Below, piece by piece: positions 9,315 to 31,710 of a stretch of 32,559 bases of DNA. The DNA comes from Bacillota bacterium (GTDB lineage: Bacteria; Bacillota; JAAYKD01), in NCBI GenBank assembly GCA_012522585.1, contig JAAYKD010000139.1, forward strand, positions 1 through 32,559, read 5' to 3'. Position 1 is the stretch's first letter, and each line of letters opens with the position of its first letter. The notes under the pieces are model-generated. The model had not been told where the DNA came from. It searched no databases and saw nothing but the letters and a program-made list of their open reading frames with translations. A program made the position numbers and the translations under genes.

Positions 9315-9959
9315 CTAACCTAATAGTCCTAACCAATCTCCGAAGAGGAAGTCCAGTCTACCGATAAGTAAGGATATACGAGCCATAACGGTGTTACCGA
9401 AAGATGCTCCAAATCCGATCATGATAGCTATACGACCCCAATCGGCGGCATATTTAAACACACCTTTGTGTTCGACGGTGAACAAGAAGTAAGTTAGGAC
9501 ACCTAAGACAATTGAGACAAATAGTATATTATTTATACTCTGAGCTAAATCAAAGCTGCCATTTGTCATTGCAACTAAAGGTTTAATTGCCATGGTCAAT
9601 TGGTTCAAGAAAGGAATTACCTGACGGGCAGATAGTACCAGAGCTGCGTTATAACCAATCCACAAGGCCATGGGAATTCTGGCTAACCATGCATAAGGTC
9701 TGTAGAAGTTGAAATAAATCATCAAACCGAGAAGCATGGGGAGAATTTCCCACCAAGTGCCGTATTTGGGCATATCGGTCAAGGCAGGCTTAACCGTATT
9801 ATTCCAAGTGGTTACTATACCGTGAGCCGCTGATGCTCCCACATATAAGTGTTCTGCTATTCTATAAAATGGATTCTCTTTATAAAGAATGGAAAATAAC
9901 ATCAAGGTAATCAAAGCTGACAGCCAGTTACCTAGTGTCGGTGTTAAAATGGCTTCCAT
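9315..9959 (-). CDS. Multi-pass membrane protein of unknown function (fourth gene of membrane operon)
   Basis: I do not recognise a characterised function. The protein (214 residues) is mostly hydrophobic, with about six membrane segments at roughly residues 10-28, 40-58, 68-90, 92-110, 140-162 and 170-212. A charged stretch NPFYRIAEHLYVG follows the first helix, and FNFYRPYAWLARIP joins two central helices. The ATG was chosen over an adjacent upstream TTG because GGGAGGTGA lies about 6 nt before it. It is the last gene before a strong terminator and lies 17 nt after the preceding membrane gene, so it is almost surely cotranscribed and may be a subunit of the same complex. Confidence 0.8.
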   Translation of the reverse strand: MEAILTPTLGNWLSALITLMLFSILYKENPFYRIAEHLYVGASAAHGIVTTWNNTVKPALTDMPKYGTWWEILPMLLGLMIYFNFYRPYAWLARIPMALWIGYNAALVLSARQVIPFLNQLTMAIKPLVAMTNGSFDLAQSINNILFVSIVLGVLTYFLFTVEHKGVFKYAADWGRIAIMIGFGASFGNTVMARISLLIGRLDFLFGDWLGLLG

Positions 9960-9976
9960 CAATCGTCACCTCCCAA

Positions 9977-10810
9977 TTATTTGCCTTCTGCACTCTTAGA
10001 CGCGAAGTATCCTATGTTGCCTAAGACTAAGAAGAGAATGATTACTACGTGGCCCAATGATTGTGAGTCCATACCACCTGTTGCTGAACCCAATTCTCCA
10101 TGTAAGCTTTCAGCATAAGCTGCTCCTGCTAATCCACCTAGGTTGCCTTTGAGCAAACCGGCTTGATAGTAGTTGGTCATGGTGGGGGTGGAAACGGATG
10201 TGCAAGCGGAAAGAATCGGAACTCCTTCGGTTGCATTCCACTGTTGGATCCAAGCAGTTGGACCGGGGTCGCCTGTATTGAATGAGAATACTGCGTCAAA
10301 GTCTTTAGCCTTTGTCACATTCTTCATCACGGGGAATTCGCTTAATCGGTTACCGTATTTATCGATACCGGCATTCAAAGCTGCATGCAGATCTGTTCTG
10401 GCTTGCTCCATAAATGCTGAGTAACTGACTACATAACCTAAATTCATAAAGTTTTCGCCGTAGACAGCATCATGTGCTTCAGCAATTGGGTCTGCCCAAA
10501 GAGCTGAGAAGTTATTTCCTTCGGCCCACAATGCCATTAAGAATACATTGTGACCCTTTTGGAAGGATAGATCTATAAAAACATCAGATGCCGGCTTTAA
10601 CTCAGTCATACCGGATGCAGATAGATCATATGTATAAAGAACATTGGAACCTGCCGGTAAGTCTGCTATATAATTATAAGCTGCTTCAGCTATAACATCA
10701 CTGGGAACCGGTAGGCCGATGGGGTTGAACATGGGAATTGCTACACTTAAAGCGATAACCACATATAAAATTCTACGGTCAATTAACATTAATCGTCTAT
10801 ACCAAGGCAT
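9977..10810 (-). CDS. Membrane-anchored protein with a large soluble domain, unknown function (third gene of membrane operon)
   Basis: 277 residues: one N-terminal helix (about 12-28), a soluble domain of about 225 residues, and one C-terminal helix (about 254-271, in GHVVIILFLVLGNIGYF). The topology suggests that both ends anchor a domain, most likely outside the membrane. The domain has recurrent GENFMNLGYV, TGDPGPTAWIQQW and GVPILSACTSVSTP segments and ends with GLLKGNLGGLAGAAYAE, which looks like a conserved family rather than random sequence. I recall similar uncharacterised proteins in other anaerobes and thermophiles but cannot name a function. AAGGAGGT sits 7 nt before the ATG. Confidence 0.8.
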   Translation of the reverse strand: MPWYRRLMLIDRRILYVVIALSVAIPMFNPIGLPVPSDVIAEAAYNYIADLPAGSNVLYTYDLSASGMTELKPASDVFIDLSFQKGHNVFLMALWAEGNNFSALWADPIAEAHDAVYGENFMNLGYVVSYSAFMEQARTDLHAALNAGIDKYGNRLSEFPVMKNVTKAKDFDAVFSFNTGDPGPTAWIQQWNATEGVPILSACTSVSTPTMTNYYQAGLLKGNLGGLAGAAYAESLHGELGSATGGMDSQSLGHVVIILFLVLGNIGYFASKSAEGK

Positions 10811-10842
10811 ACTTTGTACCTCCTTTTCGTTACTGTTTACAA

Positions 10843-11466
10843 CTATTCTGCCATATAACCACGTTCGATACCGAACAGGTTACGAGCACCTTGGGCAAAG
10901 GAGCCGAGGGATACACCCAATGCTACACCACGAATAACCGGTGTATTAAAATAGTCCATAATCCAAGTTTTGGCTTCTGGTAGCATGGGAGTTATAGCTG
11001 CTCCTATGGATGTTGCACCCAACATAACGATAGTTGCCGATACTAACAATGCTCCGGCTTCTACGCTACGAGCTCTAAAGGCACGATAAGCTGCGGAACC
11101 GATATAGAAGCACAATAACGAGAATACTGTTGAGCTTCCGGTTACTGCTGTGTTCTGGTAGAACCACTGATAAGTGTCACTGTTATGCCCGCCGTCAAGT
11201 AGTATGCCGAGGAAGAACAGTAATGCAAAACCACCAATCAAAATTACACTATTATACCAACCTTCACGTCTACGACTTACGCGACGTCCGTGAACTCTGA
11301 GCAAGGAAAGACCACCCAAAGCTACTGCAGTTGCCGATGATAAAGCTACACTTCTGACTAAATAGTCTTGAACCAATTGGTTAAAACCAGGACTAATAAA
11401 GATATCTTTTATGATTACAATCAAACCCGCGATTAGGGTTATCGCTGCTGGTAGTGTCCTACGCAT
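10843..11466 (-). CDS. Multi-pass membrane protein of unknown function (second gene of membrane operon)
   Basis: 207 residues with about five or six hydrophobic segments (roughly 5-24, 38-56, 74-92, 108-126, 136-160 and 175-195). A very basic loop HGRRVSRRREGW lies between the second and third helices and AYRAFRARSVEAG follows the fourth; both should face the cytoplasm by the positive-inside rule. The C-terminus ends GIERGYMAE after a small-residue-rich helix (GVALGVSLGSFAQGARN). No catalytic motif was recognised. AGGAGGTG precedes the ATG by 6 nt. It lies 26 nt after the first gene and 32 nt before the third, in one operon. Confidence 0.8.
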   Translation of the reverse strand: MRRTLPAAITLIAGLIVIIKDIFISPGFNQLVQDYLVRSVALSSATAVALGGLSLLRVHGRRVSRRREGWYNSVILIGGFALLFFLGILLDGGHNSDTYQWFYQNTAVTGSSTVFSLLCFYIGSAAYRAFRARSVEAGALLVSATIVMLGATSIGAAITPMLPEAKTWIMDYFNTPVIRGVALGVSLGSFAQGARNLFGIERGYMAE

Positions 11467-11492
11467 ATGTTACACCTCCTATTAACCTGTTT

Positions 11493-12347
11493 CTAATACA
11501 GTTTCAGTAAATCGATGATGAAGTTACCAGAACCGCCTGATGCGGATACAAATGTCGCTACTAGGGTTCCTAAAACGATCATCGCTACCGTCCATTGCTT
11601 AAACCAGTCTTGAACAACGATTGTTGCCAGTCTCTGACGGTCTTGACCTAAATAAGCTCCGGCTACGAAAATTTCTTCACCAATCAATGTATAGTCACAT
11701 GCTACAACGAAGAAGGGGGTTTGAGAAGTTGAGCTGGTTGCCGCGACTTGAATTGCACCGGCAATGTTACCTGCTTCTGCGAAAACCAATGATTCTGCGT
11801 AGAACAAACCGAACAATACGAGGGCGGCTACGCCTTCACGGTTCATAATACCAACAACACCAGCTGCATAACCAAATTGGTCACTGGTTAAGAAGCGAAC
11901 GTCGTCATCTCTATAGGCATCTGGTTTACCCTGTTCATAGTAAGCTGCTCTTACAACTGATTCAGTAACTGGTTGAACGTTGGCGTTACGATTGGCTACG
12001 ATCAATCTGGCATCGTATTTGGCAATCAATTTTGCTACGTGACCTAATACGTTAAAGGATGCCAAGGTGTCAGAGGAAGATAGAGCACCGATACCGGGGC
12101 TATACAATACCGGACGACCCATTTCTGTCGCACGGCCTACTACTTCGTCTACCGCATCCAAACCTGCTATTCTACGGACTTTCGGAATTGCTGCTGCTGT
12201 TCTAGATCTTTGGACCATCGTCAGCAATAAAATAACAAACAAAACTAAAAAGACGGTTGAGGTCAATCCGAAATCGCCGCTAGTATATAGCCAGCTTTCA
12301 AAAATAGGTCTTATGGCATCTGAAATATTCTGCATAAATGGCGTCAT
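11493..12347 (-). CDS. Membrane protein with a cytoplasmic Rossmann-like domain, resembling DUF6754 proteins (first gene of membrane operon)
   Basis: 284 residues from the chosen ATG. One helix at about 28-46, then a soluble domain with alternating beta/alpha pattern: GRATEMGRPVLYSPGIGALS, KYDARLIVANRN, TSDQFGYAAGVVGIM, EGVAALVLFGLFYAE, FFVVACDYTLIGEEIFVAG. A final helix at about 252-268 is followed by a short tail. From memory this pattern resembles the DUF6754 family; that assignment is recollection, not a search. The start was moved 39 nt inside the longest frame because AGGAGGTG lies just before ATG-ACG. It is the first gene after a TTGACA promoter with a 5' leader of about 170 nt. Confidence 0.8.
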   Translation of the reverse strand: MTPFMQNISDAIRPIFESWLYTSGDFGLTSTVFLVLFVILLLTMVQRSRTAAAIPKVRRIAGLDAVDEVVGRATEMGRPVLYSPGIGALSSSDTLASFNVLGHVAKLIAKYDARLIVANRNANVQPVTESVVRAAYYEQGKPDAYRDDDVRFLTSDQFGYAAGVVGIMNREGVAALVLFGLFYAESLVFAEAGNIAGAIQVAATSSTSQTPFFVVACDYTLIGEEIFVAGAYLGQDRQRLATIVVQDWFKQWTVAMIVLGTLVATFVSASGGSGNFIIDLLKLY

Positions 12348-12525
12348 ATTAATTTTGCACCTCCTGTGAAAACTAGGAATTTTCATTTGGAATTCTCTTA
12401 TCTAATCTGCAGTCAGGTTGAGAAACGACAGGAATTTATCCAATCACTTTTCTCTTTTGCTTTACCCACCTTTCTTTAAAAATTAACGACAGAAAAGAAT
12501 TACAGAATTCTCTGTGACCAAAACT

Positions 12526-12949: not shown

Positions 12950-12993
12950 AAAAAAGCACCCACTTTGTTCTTTAACGAATATGCGGGTGCTTT
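12950..12993 (-). terminator. Terminator of the selenoprotein-metal sensor operon
   Basis: AAAGCACCC pairs with GGGTGCTTT around a loop of about 20 nt. On the minus strand the hairpin is followed by a run of T. It lies directly after the ArsR-family gene. Confidence 0.85.
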
Positions 12994-13007
12994 TATAAAT
13001 CTATACC

Positions 13008-13358
13008 TTAACGATGTCTAACGTGTGCCAATCCCTGCTTAAATAGATCTTCTACGTGTTCATCATCCAAAGAATAAATTATATTTCTGCCTTCTCTTCT
13101 GTTTTTTATCAAACGATTGGCTTTGAGCAGGCGAAGTTGATGAGAAATTGCCGAAAGACTGACATTGCTATTTTCCGCCAGCTCATTGACACAATGTTCT
13201 CTTTGAGCAAGAAGAAATAAAATTCCAATTCGGGTAGGGTCTCCAAGAGTTTTAAACAAGGTTGCCAACTCACTGGCTTCATCCTGAGCCAAGACTTTTG
13301 CCGGCTCATTTATGTCCACTTCACTCAGCTGATCGCATTTTCTTTTTTCATCCGACAT
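13008..13358 (-). CDS. ArsR/SmtB-family metal-sensing repressor (zinc-type alpha-5 site)
   Basis: A 116-residue winged-helix repressor of the SmtB/CzrA kind: LFKTLGDPTRIGILFLL, then the recognition helix NVSLSAISHQLRLLKANRLI and the wing NRREGRNIIYSL. The C-terminal helix contains D99-x-H101 and H112-x2-H115, the exact spacing of the zinc ligands in the CzrA/SmtB alpha-5 site, so zinc or cobalt sensing is likely (inference from family knowledge). Cysteines C8 and C56 could be remnants of the N-terminal alpha-3N site, but the usual CxC near helix 3 is absent. AAAGGAG precedes the inner ATG by 8 nt, so the longer frame is rejected. It lies 30 nt after the selenoprotein gene and probably shares its promoter. 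Confidence 0.92.
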   Translation of the reverse strand: MSDEKRKCDQLSEVDINEPAKVLAQDEASELATLFKTLGDPTRIGILFLLAQREHCVNELAENSNVSLSAISHQLRLLKANRLIKNRREGRNIIYSLDDEHVEDLFKQGLAHVRHR

Positions 13359-13388
13359 CCGAATGGCTCCTTTCATAAAAATTCCATT

Positions 13389-13661
13389 CTATTTTAAAAG
13401 TGTAAGATCTTCGGGTAAGCCTCTATAATATGTAACTTTGGAACCTTGGCGAACTTCTATTAGGGGAATACCCACCATGGACTTTCCTCTGACTTCGGCG
13501 TATACATCTAAAGTATCTCGCAAAACCAGGAAATCTTTAAGCTCTTTCATTCCTGAAGTAATATCTACATAACTAAATCTAATCTTGTTTACGGAAAGAA
13601 CCTCTTTCGCTGTAGTACAACCGGGTCAATATTGACTGCCATAAACTTTTATTCTCTTCAT
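13389..13661 (-). CDS. Glutaredoxin-like selenoprotein (UGA read as selenocysteine)
   Basis: Reading 13661 to 13389 on the minus strand gives 90 residues with a single in-frame TGA (13628-13626) and a TAG stop. The protein begins MKRIKVYGSQY-U-PGC: the UGA falls where glutaredoxins have the nucleophilic first cysteine of CxxC, and the resolving C15 is kept. After it come FSYVDIT, the LKDFLVLRDT segment typical of small glutaredoxin-related proteins, and the cis-proline region MVGIPLIEV. An AAGGGAG box lies 8 nt before the ATG. A hairpin with a GG-containing loop starts 17 nt after the UGA, as expected of a bacterial SECIS. The rest of the frame is intact and coding-like, so simple decay is unlikely. 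It is cotranscribed with the metal sensor just downstream. The substrate is unknown. Confidence 0.85.
13594..13608 (-). promoter_or_regulatory. SECIS-like hairpin downstream of the UGA codon
   Basis: On the minus strand GAAAG pairs with CTTTC around the 5-nt loop AGGTT, which has G at loop position 2. The loop begins 22 nt after the UGA, inside the 16-37 nt window known for bacterial SECIS elements. The lower stem is imperfect. Confidence 0.75.
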
Positions 13662-13710
13662 ATTCATTCTCCCTTGATAATGTTATTTTCTTCTTTTCGT
13701 CAAATCTAAG

Positions 13711-17594: not shown

Positions 17595-17800
17595 AACGAA
17601 GGATTCGGGAGAGATTGTTTTACTTACAACTTTGTAACCAAACAACGCCGAAGGTGATGCAGCAACTCTCAGGCAAAAGGATCGAATCTGGACGACACTC
17701 CGGAAAGTCATTAAATTGACGCCGACGAAGCAATTGATGCCTTCCACCTAAAATAAATCTTTTAATTTAAAGGCAAAAAGAATCTTTCAGGCAAAGTAAC
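17595..17800 (+). promoter_or_regulatory. Tandem glycine riboswitch
   Basis: Two glycine aptamers in series. Aptamer 1 is closed by GATTCG (17602-17607) with CGAATC (17683-17688) and contains the conserved GCCGAAGGTGATGCAGCAA and CTCTCAGGCAAAAGGA. Aptamer 2 begins near 17690 with GGACGACACTCCGGA and contains GACGCCGACGAAGCAA and TTTCAGGCAAAG; its variable arm is longer and AT-rich (about 17725-17785). The architecture is the known cooperative glycine sensor. It precedes a terminator and the gcv genes, so glycine should switch on the operon for its own breakdown. Confidence 0.95.
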
Positions 17801-17834
17801 GGGGGCATGTTTTTAAACATGTCCCTGTTTTTTT
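17801..17834 (+). terminator. Riboswitch-controlled terminator
   Basis: GGGCATGTTT pairs with AAACATGTCC, followed by a T-run (TGTTTTTTT). It lies directly after aptamer 2 and before gcvT, so it is the likely expression platform. Glycine binding is expected to prevent its formation. Confidence 0.88.
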
Positions 17835-25918: not shown

Positions 25919-26093
25919 AATGCAAATCGGGTGCAAATCGGGGACAGTCCCGGTTTTGCAAAGCTTCTATAGAAGAAATTCTAATCGAGAACAGCCTATA
26001 AGGAACCCAGGCATACTATGTATGCTGGTTCCGCAACTCCGGCTTGTGCCAAGGGCACACGCTGGAGCAAACAGACAACATCTTTTATAAAAA
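25919..26093 (+). repeat. Multi-hairpin intergenic repeat, copy R1
   Basis: The unit holds a palindrome around GGGGACAGTCCC flanked by TGCAAATCG / TTTTGCA, the 12-bp palindrome CTTCTATAGAAG (about 25964-25975), a hairpin GGAACC...GGTTCC with GCATAC/GTATGC arms (about 26002-26032), and a hairpin CTCCGGCTTGTGCC with GGCACACGCTGGAG (about 26037-26067), then GCAAACAGACAACATCTTTT. The same modules in reverse order make up the copies at 28943-29380. A short piece of the unit end recurs at 26161-26175. No gene is seen in 25914-26195. Confidence 0.85.
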
Positions 26094-26195
26094 CATGTAG
26101 AAGAAAATCTAATAGTTCATGTTAAATATTCTCAAAAATAAAAAAACCTGCCATCTTCCTAGCTGGAGCAAACAAACAAAAAACAAGTTGGTGAA

Positions 26196-26633: not shown

Positions 26634-26684
26634 TTTTTCGGGAAACTTTTTTAGCGCTTGATAAAGGTATTTCCTAACAGCACC

Positions 26685-26810
26685 GATGCAAATCGGGGAC
26701 TGTCCCGGTTTTGCAAAGCTTCTATAGAAGAAAGAAAAAAGCCCGCTGGGGTTGGGGAACCGGCACACAAGGTGTGCCTAAGTTCCTTATAACAGTCCCC
26801 GATTTGCATT
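26685..26810 (+). repeat. Multi-hairpin intergenic repeat, copy R2 (shorter)
   Basis: Starts like R1 (TGCAAATCGGGGACTGTCCC, TTTTGCAAAGCTTC, CTATAGAAGAA), then has AAGCCCGCTGGGG, a half-terminator also found at 29389, a hairpin GGCACAC/GTGTGCC, and ends GTTCCTTATAACAGTCCCCGATTTGCA. The two ends are inverted copies of one another (GCAAATCGGGGACTGT... and ...ACAGTCCCCGATTTGC). Confidence 0.8.
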
Positions 26811-26811
26811 C

Positions 26812-26852
26812 AAAAAGAGGCTGCAGCTATTTGCTTGCAGCCTCTTTATTTT
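26812..26852. terminator. Hairpin terminator, also one arm of a 30-bp direct repeat
   Basis: AAAGAGGCTGCA pairs with TGCAGCCTCTTT around a 9-nt loop, with A-rich and T-rich flanks, so it can work both ways. The first 30 bases recur at 28912-28941 with one mismatch, exactly 2,100 bp away, on the other side of the deacetylase gene. Confidence 0.8.
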
Positions 26853-28911: not shown

Positions 28912-28941
28912 AAAAAGAGGCTGCAGCTATTTGCTTACAGC
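28912..28941. repeat. 30-bp direct repeat flanking the deacetylase segment
   Basis: AAAAAGAGGCTGCAGCTATT and the following ten bases match 26812-26841 with one mismatch. Here the distal stem is decayed (ACAGCTTCTG), so the terminator no longer folds well. With its partner it brackets the deacetylase gene and its promoter. Confidence 0.8.
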
Positions 28942-28942
28942 T

Positions 28943-29151
28943 TCTGTAGAAGATGTTATTTGTTTGCTCCAGCGTGTGCCTATGGCACAAGCCAGAGTTA
29001 CGGAACCAGCATATACAATATGCCTGGGTTCCTTATAGACTGTCCCCGAGTTGCACGCGGAGCACTCGGCTTTTAGAAATTTTTTTTCCTAAGTTTAGTC
29101 GTATAACCGATGCAAATTGGGGACTGTCCCCGATTTGCATAGCTTAAAGTT
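28943..29151 (-). repeat. Multi-hairpin intergenic repeat, copy R3
   Basis: Reverse-complement orientation relative to R1: GATGTTATTTGTTTGCTCC, hairpin GTGTGCC/GGCACA, hairpin GGAACCAGCATAT/ATATGCCTGGGTTCC, then CGGAGCACTCGGCTTT, TCCTAAGTTTAGTCG and the palindrome GGGGACTGTCCCC with GCAAAT/ATTTGC arms. It is followed directly by R4, a second copy in the same direction. Confidence 0.85.
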
Positions 29152-29380
29152 TCTATAGAAGATGTTATTTGTTTGCTCCAGCGTGTGCCTATGGCACAAG
29201 CCGGAGTTACGGAACCAGCAACTTCGTTTGCCTAAGTTCCTTATAGACTTTCCCCAAATTGCACTAACGACAGGCTCATCTGCCAACGCGGAGCACTCGG
29301 CTTTCAGAAATTTTTTTCCTAAGTTTAGTCGTATAACCGATGCAAATCGGGGACTGTCCCCGATTTGCATAGCTTTTATG
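29152..29380 (-). repeat. Multi-hairpin intergenic repeat, copy R4 (tandem with R3)
   Basis: Same module order as R3 with an offset of 209 bp. It has an extra stretch of about 20 bp (29267-29286, beginning TAACGACAGG) before CGGAGCACTCGG, and the inner hairpin loop differs (AGCAACTTCGTTTGCC). Ends in the perfect palindrome TGCAAATCGGGGACTG... / ...CAGTCCCCGATTTGCA. Several small frames here are by-products of the repeat. Confidence 0.85.
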
Positions 29381-29388
29381 GAAGAAAA

Positions 29389-29415: not shown

Positions 29416-30273
29416 TTAAAAATTACCGGTATAGACGTAGTTTAGATGTTTTTGGGCTGTTTCGACGAGGCTGATCATCTTTTCCAAACTGGGCGGGGTT
29501 AAGTCTCTCCGCAACCAATGGGGAAAGGAGCGGCTGATGTGTAAGGGTATATCTTGATCGATAGAAGCGAGCCAAGAGCTCAAAGCTTCCATCTCTTCTA
29601 GAGAATCGTTTTCGCCTGTGAGAATTAGATTTGTTATTTCCACATGGCTGATTCTAGCCAAGTATTCAATATTACTTTTAACCGTTTCTAAATCGCCTAA
29701 AAGGCTTTTATAATATTCTGAATTGATACTCTTTAAATCGATGTTCCAGGCATCAATATATGGTGCTAGCTCTTTAATCGCCCAATCGGAAAAATTCCCG
29801 TTAGTCACCACAACTGTTTTTAGACCCTGTTCCTTGATCAATTTAGCAGTTCTCAAAACATATTCAAATGAGGTTAAGGGTTCATTATAGGTGAAAGCTA
29901 AGCCAATATTGTTTTTATCCTTGAGATCTACAGCCAATTGACATATTTCTTCGGGACTATGGACTTTGCCGTAGGTATCCATGGTGATGGAATCGGGATG
30001 GGATATATTATGGTTCTGACAATAAGGGCAGAGCATATTACAGCCCCAAAAACCAATGGAAAGGATATTCATCTCCGGCCAAAAACGCCTTAAAGGTTTT
30101 TTAATCACCGGATCCAAAGTAATCGAAGACAATTTGACAGGCTCAGCCAAAACAATTTGGCCTCTTTTATTTGTTCTGACCTTGCAAAAGCCAAAAGCCC
30201 CAAGTGAGATCAGACAGTGTCTGGGGCACAATAGACATTCGACTTGGTCTTTTTCCTTTTGATCAATATTCAT
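29416..30273 (-). CDS. amrS: AmmeMemoRadiSam system radical SAM enzyme
   Basis: 285 residues. The radical SAM cluster is C78-x3-C82-x2-C85 in GCNMLCPYCQN. An N-terminal cysteine group (C13, C16, C20, C30: CLLCPRHC...FC) is also characteristic of this AmrS family and resembles activating enzymes. After it come AFTYNEPLTSFEY, VVTNGN and WNIDLKS, typical of radical SAM barrels. The substrate is not known. The start was moved to the ATG after GAGGTT; it overlaps the upstream MEMO-AMMECR1 gene by 11 nt, so the two proteins are probably made together. Confidence 0.92.
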   Translation of the reverse strand: MNIDQKEKDQVECLLCPRHCLISLGAFGFCKVRTNKRGQIVLAEPVKLSSITLDPVIKKPLRRFWPEMNILSIGFWGCNMLCPYCQNHNISHPDSITMDTYGKVHSPEEICQLAVDLKDKNNIGLAFTYNEPLTSFEYVLRTAKLIKEQGLKTVVVTNGNFSDWAIKELAPYIDAWNIDLKSINSEYYKSLLGDLETVKSNIEYLARISHVEITNLILTGENDSLEEMEALSSWLASIDQDIPLHISRSFPHWLRRDLTPPSLEKMISLVETAQKHLNYVYTGNF

Positions 30274-31582
30274 GACGCACAACCTCAAACCTCCAGAGCT
30301 CAAAGGATTCATTGGCTCTAATACCGGCTTTATCCTTGGCTATCGAAACCTGTTCTTCAACGGTGTTAACACCATCTAAATTAGGCAACAAGACTCCACT
30401 CTTGTAGCCTGATTTGACTATAACTCCGTATCTCTTGACGTCCAGTTTATCTGCAGAAGAAATTTTCTCCGGCTCACTGAGGACATCAACACTAATTTGC
30501 AAATCCTCTAATTCTCTTTCCTGCACAGGGAAAAAGCGAGGATCCTTGGAACAAGCACTGACTGCATTTTCTATAATTTCTATTGCTAAGTTCTCTCGAT
30601 AGGGCTCTAGGGTGCCAATGCAGCCTCTCAATCTTCCCTGGGAATTGAGAGTGACAAAACAGGCGGCTCTTCTTTCAATTAACTCAGGTGGCAAATCTTC
30701 TGGCAAGTTTAAAACTCTTCCTGTTTTGACATAGTGTTCCACAGATTGCCGAGCCAGCTCAATATAAGGATTCTTTTTAGCTTCAATTCCTGCCAAATAA
30801 GCGACAGCATAACCAACTCCAAAGGGACCTTCATAGGACAGAAGCTCAGATTCTACTTCTTCTCCTTGATAAAGACCAGCTAAAATTTGGAAGGATCTCA
30901 CGCCACATTCAGCGGCTTTATCGCACATTCTATCATCCAGCCCAAATATATCCTGCAAACTTCCTTGTTTGAAGATTTCCACTATGCTTTGGTCGAACTC
31001 AGGTCCTTCTTTAACGAAACCATAGGGTCCATCCGCTTTCAATTTGTGGGAAAGATCACCGGAAGCAACGAAAACGATTCTTTTTTCACTCCGGGCAAAG
31101 ACTTTAGCCAATACCTGACCCACCTCTCGATGAGTCTCTGCTGAAAGACCTGAAAAGCCAAGGCGGATCACCTTAAAATCCGGCCATTCTTTAGCTATAA
31201 AGTATAAGGGGATGAGTGTTCCATGATCTAAATTCGGATCGGTTTCTCCGGCATCACCAAGAGGCAGCCTTGCTTTTTCTGCTTCTTCGATAATTTCTCC
31301 TCTTAATTCAGTATCATAATCAACTCTTAGCTTGACTTGAGGCTGGCCAAAATTTGCAAAATTACCTGCAGCTATTTCTCCCGGAGAGACATGGAAATAA
31401 TCTGCATAAAGGGTGGTATGAGGGGAAACAACTACGATAGTGTCAGGTTTTAACAAGGCAATTCTTTTTGAAATCTCTTCCATTGCGGCAATGGTGTCAG
31501 AAATTTGCCTCTCATCTCCCCTGCCTATTTCTGGTATAATTAAGGGTGGATGGGGTGTGACAACAGAAGCTAATAAAGGCAT
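30263..31582 (-). CDS. MEMO1-AMMECR1 fusion protein (AmmeMemoRadiSam system A and B)
   Basis: 439 residues. The N-terminal part (about 1-265) is a MEMO1/LigB-like class III dioxygenase fold: VVTPHPPLIIPEIG, VVVSPHT, LDHGTLIPL, VASGDLSHKL and DKAAECGVRS, with histidines that bind metal in LigB relatives. The C-terminal part (about 270-439) is AMMECR1: ELARQSVEHYV, ACFVTLNSQGRLRGCIGT and FFPVQERELEDLQISVDVLS. The fusion brings systems A and B into one chain, and the radical SAM partner follows. Human homologues of both domains exist, but the bacterial reaction is unknown. AAGGAGTG 5 nt before the inner ATG decides the start. Confidence 0.93.
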   Translation of the reverse strand: MPLLASVVTPHPPLIIPEIGRGDERQISDTIAAMEEISKRIALLKPDTIVVVSPHTTLYADYFHVSPGEIAAGNFANFGQPQVKLRVDYDTELRGEIIEEAEKARLPLGDAGETDPNLDHGTLIPLYFIAKEWPDFKVIRLGFSGLSAETHREVGQVLAKVFARSEKRIVFVASGDLSHKLKADGPYGFVKEGPEFDQSIVEIFKQGSLQDIFGLDDRMCDKAAECGVRSFQILAGLYQGEEVESELLSYEGPFGVGYAVAYLAGIEAKKNPYIELARQSVEHYVKTGRVLNLPEDLPPELIERRAACFVTLNSQGRLRGCIGTLEPYRENLAIEIIENAVSACSKDPRFFPVQERELEDLQISVDVLSEPEKISSADKLDVKRYGVIVKSGYKSGVLLPNLDGVNTVEEQVSIAKDKAGIRANESFELWRFEVVRHEY

Positions 31583-31710
31583 AAAATCACTCCTTACATA
31601 ATAAATCAATCTACAATTTTTTCTCTTTCTGCTCGAGCTTGCAATAGAGTTCTTTTATAATTACAGCAAAAGTCTACCTCAGCTGTTCTTGTTTTGGATC
31701 AAATTATATG

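Follow-up and report, generated by a model that had tools for sequence, protein, structure and literature searches.

A probable selenocysteine-containing glutaredoxin encoded through an in-frame UGA in a Bacillota bacterium

The 32,559-nucleotide stretch of DNA analysed here (contig JAAYKD010000139.1 of a Bacillota bacterium, hereafter the window) carries on its minus strand what is almost certainly an intact gene for a 90-residue glutaredoxin that contains selenocysteine (Sec), with Sec placed at UGA codon 12 through SelB and a downstream hairpin, and with a redox role of the glutaredoxin type. The reading frame, the conserved UGA, its cysteine counterparts, the selection past the UGA, the covarying hairpin, the Sec machinery and the fold were computed here, while Sec insertion itself, the redox chemistry, the electron donor and the substrates are what we infer.

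The first-pass annotation of the locus had the coordinates and content of the gene right, namely a 90-codon frame in which the only TGA is codon 12, with a TAG stop and a ribosome site of its own, here GGGAG (Table 1), although it left the minus strand unstated; the plus strand of the same interval translates into many stops and no sensible frame. With TGA read as U, the product is 90 residues long with one such codon, reads MKRIKVYGSQYUPGCTTAKEVLSVNKIRFSYVDITSGMKELKDFLVLRDTLDVYAEVRGKSMVGIPLIEVRQGSKVTYYRGLPEDLTLLK, and thus contains the U12-P-G-C15 motif as proposed, with TGA at a position where homologues have Cys. The Pfam model Glutaredoxin (PF00462) matches the product at 26.4 bits against a cut-off of 22.9, and it matches 36 of 37 family members at E <= 0.001. 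The family is presumably the one named COG4545.

Table 1 Features of the selenoprotein glutaredoxin locus, in window positions
Feature	Position	Strand	Basis and details
Selenoprotein glutaredoxin (grx) gene	13389..13661	-	90 codons, ATG at 13661, TAG 13391-13389, UPGC active site
In-frame UGA, codon 12, inferred Sec	13626..13628	-	Aligned TGA in 33/33 Sec members; Cys codon in 27 other homologues
Cys15, resolving cysteine of UxxC	13617..13619	-	Nearly invariant alignment column
GGGAG ribosome-binding site of grx	13669..13673	-	Sequence; 7 nt upstream of ATG
bSECIS-like hairpin GAAAGA[GGU]UCUUUC, 6 bp	13594..13608	-	Loop 23 nt after UGA; family-wide, covarying
ArsR/SmtB-type regulator gene, just downstream of grx	13008..13376	-	Passes the cut-offs of PF01022 and NF033788
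Inverted repeat AAAAGCACCC/GGGTGCTTTT with T run, likely grx-arsR terminator	12952..12994	-	Sequence

The regulator gene next to grx appears to have a better start at the ATG at 13358, which comes with an AGGAG site, and its product has a D105-x-H107-x10-H118-x2-H121 site of the alpha5 type, the kind that binds zinc, cobalt or nickel in SmtB and CzrA. The inverted repeat that follows is missing from a simple terminator scan, its loop being 23 nt long. On this strand grx is succeeded by arsR and then by the inverted repeat with its T run, so the two genes probably form one transcript, and in this genome the operon with a metal sensor described in the first-pass annotation therefore stands, with the genes adjacent and a likely terminator shared. 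It does not extend further. In a sister genome, an independently assembled family-level relative, both the HD-domain and the DUF6754 flanking genes are kept but arsR is missing between them, and arsR is not near grx in any other family member examined; the pairing, judged by gene order, is lineage-specific.

The alternative that survives best arises from this neighborhood. The product may be a selenoprotein for metal or metalloid handling under the adjoining ArsR-type sensor and not for general disulfide reduction, as could be suggested by the adjacency of the two genes on one strand ahead of a single likely terminator, by the intact alpha5-type metal site of the sensor, and by a review that suggests metal binding for the UXX-star selenoproteins (PMC13188914). 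However, arsR is not found beside the gene in the sister genome or in any other member examined, and no inverted-repeat operator was found upstream of grx. We consider this role unlikely, and a functional pairing of ArsR with grx was ranked low because the adjacency is not conserved.

Several other features of the window can be recorded here. A four-gene cluster at 9315-12386 encodes one DUF6754 protein and three proteins without any Pfam match, and at 29416-31609 a radical SAM protein lies beside a LigB/Memo-AMMECR1 fusion in an arrangement that resembles the AmmeMemoRadiSam set. Dispersed direct and inverted repeats of 32-108 nt (TGCAAATCGGGGACTGTCCCC...) are present at 25932-26094, 26654-26848 and 28912-29387, and possibly represent a small mobile element family.

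The reading of grx as a gene for a Sec-containing glutaredoxin finds support among its relatives. In the sister genome the matching codon is likewise TGA and the encoded protein is 61% identical, and a search of 60 relatives revealed homologues with TGA at that codon within the family, within the order and in other parts of the phylum, together with one Cys homologue. A single-sequence scan of named genomes gave 0 loci and an alignment-based scan gave 26. Wider searches produced 33 distinct full-length members, all with TGA aligned at codon 12, from organisms that include Oceanirhabdus, Clostridium sp. OS1-26, C. thermopalmarium, Proteocatella, Fonticella, Tissierella and Gudongella, and an enlarged set of further relatives and more distant glutaredoxins comprises 43 TGA and 27 Cys sequences, with the choice of homologues leaning on the N-terminal motif common to them. 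Cysteine is thus aligned with codon 12 in 27 homologues, as would be anticipated from the first-pass proposal. In most closely related pairs Ka/Ks past the TGA is 0.07-0.27, which indicates that the codons there are translated.

These observations bear directly on whether the gene is a pseudogene, or its TGA a TGC or TGT that was misassembled or misread. The genome is a draft in 201 contigs and TGA is one base away from a Cys codon, but the sister genome, which was assembled independently, and dozens of further genomes with distinct members have TGA there as well, which rules out sequencing error, the very possibility that the first-pass annotation had named as fatal to its claim. The purifying selection past the TGA and a SECIS-like hairpin tied to the members with TGA likewise speak against a decayed or misread gene. 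At the level of the family such a reading is already refuted, and for this copy of the gene it is highly improbable.

The hairpin after the UGA requires the comparison across the family to be appreciated. The first-pass annotation described a 5-bp stem, GAAAG-AGGTT-CTTTC, which indeed starts 17 nt past the UGA, but the structure is better drawn with 6 bp and a GGU loop and is weak evidence alone. It fits the published bSECIS geometry of a 3-9 nt loop, a 4-16 bp stem, G in the first two loop positions and a distance of 16-37 nt from the UGA (PMC13188914), with 6 bp, a loop that starts G-G and 23 nt from the UGA. The calculated energy over 36-50 nt is -7.0 kcal/mol, narrowly missing the published threshold of <= -7.5 for that length, and over 60 nt it is -9.4 kcal/mol. 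The stability of the 59-nt local fold is not above that of shuffled sequences (z = +0.63), and about 15% of coding positions drawn at random have a bSECIS-like stem of at least 6 bp within the allowed range. The window has a short form of the family hairpin, with 6 bp and the two outer pairs broken. By itself it is ordinary; the cross-family comparison is what counts.

In the family the hairpin spans 15-33 nt past the UGA and reads GUGAAAGA[GUU]UCUUUCAC or a form of it in which pairs are altered. Counted on the alignment, 90.2% of the stem cells are paired, and 17 cells are double-changed, whereas shuffling gives 4.8 +/- 1.7 such cells and sliding the partner gives no more than 8. A hairpin at the exact position of the family and with a G-first loop arises in only 0.01% of synonymous recodings and at 0.06% of random codon positions. 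First, the codon for Glu20 is GAG in 31 of 32 members versus 83 of 219 (38%) elsewhere, and next, that for Leu22 is CTT in 30 of 33 members versus 48 of 210 (23%) elsewhere, so the synonymous choice tracks the hairpin. Finally, a 6-bp core whose loop begins with G occurs in 34 of the 43 Sec (TGA) members and in none of the 27 Cys members. These hairpin counts are uncorrected for shared ancestry and, since the sequences are related and not independent, their p-values are overstated. The hairpin is absent from the expected place in L023 and L027, two of the 33 members, and in a few sequences that are more distant.

The residues encoded by the hairpin also recur outside the family. The KEFLS residues and the hairpin core are found in the distant canonical Sec-glutaredoxins L076 and L078, and KEFLS is likewise present in the glutaredoxin cGrx1 (PDB 7c10). 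This recurrence of the core with KE-x-L-S, together with the absence of the hairpin from the Cys homologues, suggests that the RNA dictates the protein sequence, and the sequence of helix 1 thus seems to be fixed by the RNA signal. Counting L076 and L078, four distant Sec-glutaredoxins (L076, L078, L101 and L110) share an identical SECIS core at an equal distance from the UGA as well as KE-x-L-S in helix 1.

The first-pass annotation had proposed a search for selA, selB, selC and selD, and all four are present in the source genome, a 1.91 Mb draft that is 94% complete. The tRNA-Sec gene (selC) has the anticodon UCA and is adjoined by that for SelB (383 bits), SelA (600 bits) is encoded just upstream, and SelD contains an in-frame TGA of its own. 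Upstream of selA lie glycine reductase genes, including a grdB with TGA in its UGTC motif. Taken together, the tRNA-Sec, SelB, SelA, the TGA-containing SelD and the TGA-containing grdB argue that UGA is very probably translated as Sec in this organism. The presence of SelB also follows that of the TGA among 208 Clostridium relatives from one family, where SelB is found in 89 genomes: it is encoded in all 12 TGA-bearing genomes (hypergeometric p = 2.4e-5) versus 5 of the 19 bearers of only the Cys form (p = 9e-5).

The UGA could instead be a true stop that yields a short peptide, or be passed at a low level by a near-cognate tRNA, and the weakness of the window's hairpin when taken alone agrees with such a view. 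Yet conservation runs through the 90 codons over many genera, Cys is the alternative residue, the Sec machinery is complete, and UGA was found only alongside SelB in the tested set, which leaves termination or incidental readthrough with very little probability. Genome-wide reassignment of UGA to another amino acid, as in codes 4 or 25, has a negligible chance of being correct, as no evidence was found in its support, Cys is what lines up with the TGA throughout the family, the tRNA-Sec has a UCA anticodon, and other genes including selA end at TGA, which already contradicts it.

The genome in which glycine reductase is encoded has in the window a tandem glycine riboswitch at 17596-17804 (two matches to Rfam RF00504), located upstream of glycine cleavage genes.

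The predicted structure of the Sec-containing product is that of a thioredoxin/glutaredoxin fold. The AF2 model (pLDDT 89.5) has the order E-H-E-H-H-E-E-H with elements E3-8, H13-24, E29-33, H38-50, H52-57, E67-72, E75-80 and H86-89, and it positions U12 of the UPxC motif just before helix 1 and P66, which is invariant in the alignment, before strand 3. The closest PDB structures are the C. oremlandii cGrx2 and cGrx1, with modest Foldseek E-values of which the best is 1.1e-3. In the proposed mechanism, SelB carrying Sec-tRNA-Sec would bind the hairpin just 3′ of UGA12 and insert Sec, which in the folded protein would start helix 1, with Pro66 at the cis-proline place. The Sec12 selenolate would then attack its target, a disulfide or perhaps an intermediate of methionine sulfoxide reductase, and the bond would be resolved by Cys15.

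The enzyme would probably be recycled by thioredoxin reductase or by some small non-glutathione thiol. Glutamate-cysteine ligase, searched for as both types, was not found in the 94%-complete draft, which makes thioredoxin reductase or another thiol a likelier reductant than glutathione, and the genome encodes one thioredoxin reductase above the cut-off and a second close homologue on the contig with the Sec genes. Two MsrA genes are also present, both without TGA, and the glutaredoxin may serve MsrA or peroxidases.

Selenoprotein glutaredoxins are known in anaerobes, as the first-pass annotation had noted. UxxC forms from Geobacter, Alkaliphilus, Moorella and the Sargasso Sea have appeared in published lists from 2005-2006 onwards (PMC1088965, PMC1794560), and like the window gene they combine Sec in UxxC with a bSECIS hairpin. 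The characterised cGrx1 of Clostridium (Alkaliphilus) oremlandii (PDB 7c10, 7c12; U(C)PHC), a native selenoprotein and proposed reductant of methionine sulfoxide reductase A (PMC7642778), has the same glutaredoxin fold, Sec as the first residue of UPxC and KEFLSxN in helix 1. The window gene therefore adds one more member to a class of selenium enzymes that is already known. The sequence match of its family to cGrx1, however, covers only the first ~45 residues, and the C-terminal half of the window family instead has the pattern DITxSM..LKxFLKxRD..VGIP. The Cys-type glutaredoxin domain proteins of Fusobacterium, Treponema, Acetoanaerobium and many Clostridiaceae belong to the same family, but have a Cys codon, mostly in CPDC, and are without the SECIS-like hairpin. 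No NCBIfam model accepts the family; the UXX-star models NF041212 and NF041114 and YruB TIGR02196 share a superfamily with the product and match it weakly, with scores of 24.7, 22.7 and 31 bits that lie well under their curated cut-offs of 66, 72 and 88.6 bits, respectively.

Only tentatively can these proteins be proposed to form a widespread and separately undescribed glutaredoxin clade of anaerobic Bacillota, mostly encoded with Sec and missed by annotation models, in which the KEFLS of helix 1 would be dictated by the SECIS hairpin, with the core and the residues recurring in distant Sec-glutaredoxins. The gene, like its relatives, would be annotated as nothing or as a truncated reading frame. 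It appears to encode a glutaredoxin that operates without glutathione, and the family, with its clean Sec/Cys pairs and strongly conserved SECIS, is useful for testing how an RNA signal constrains the protein that it encodes.
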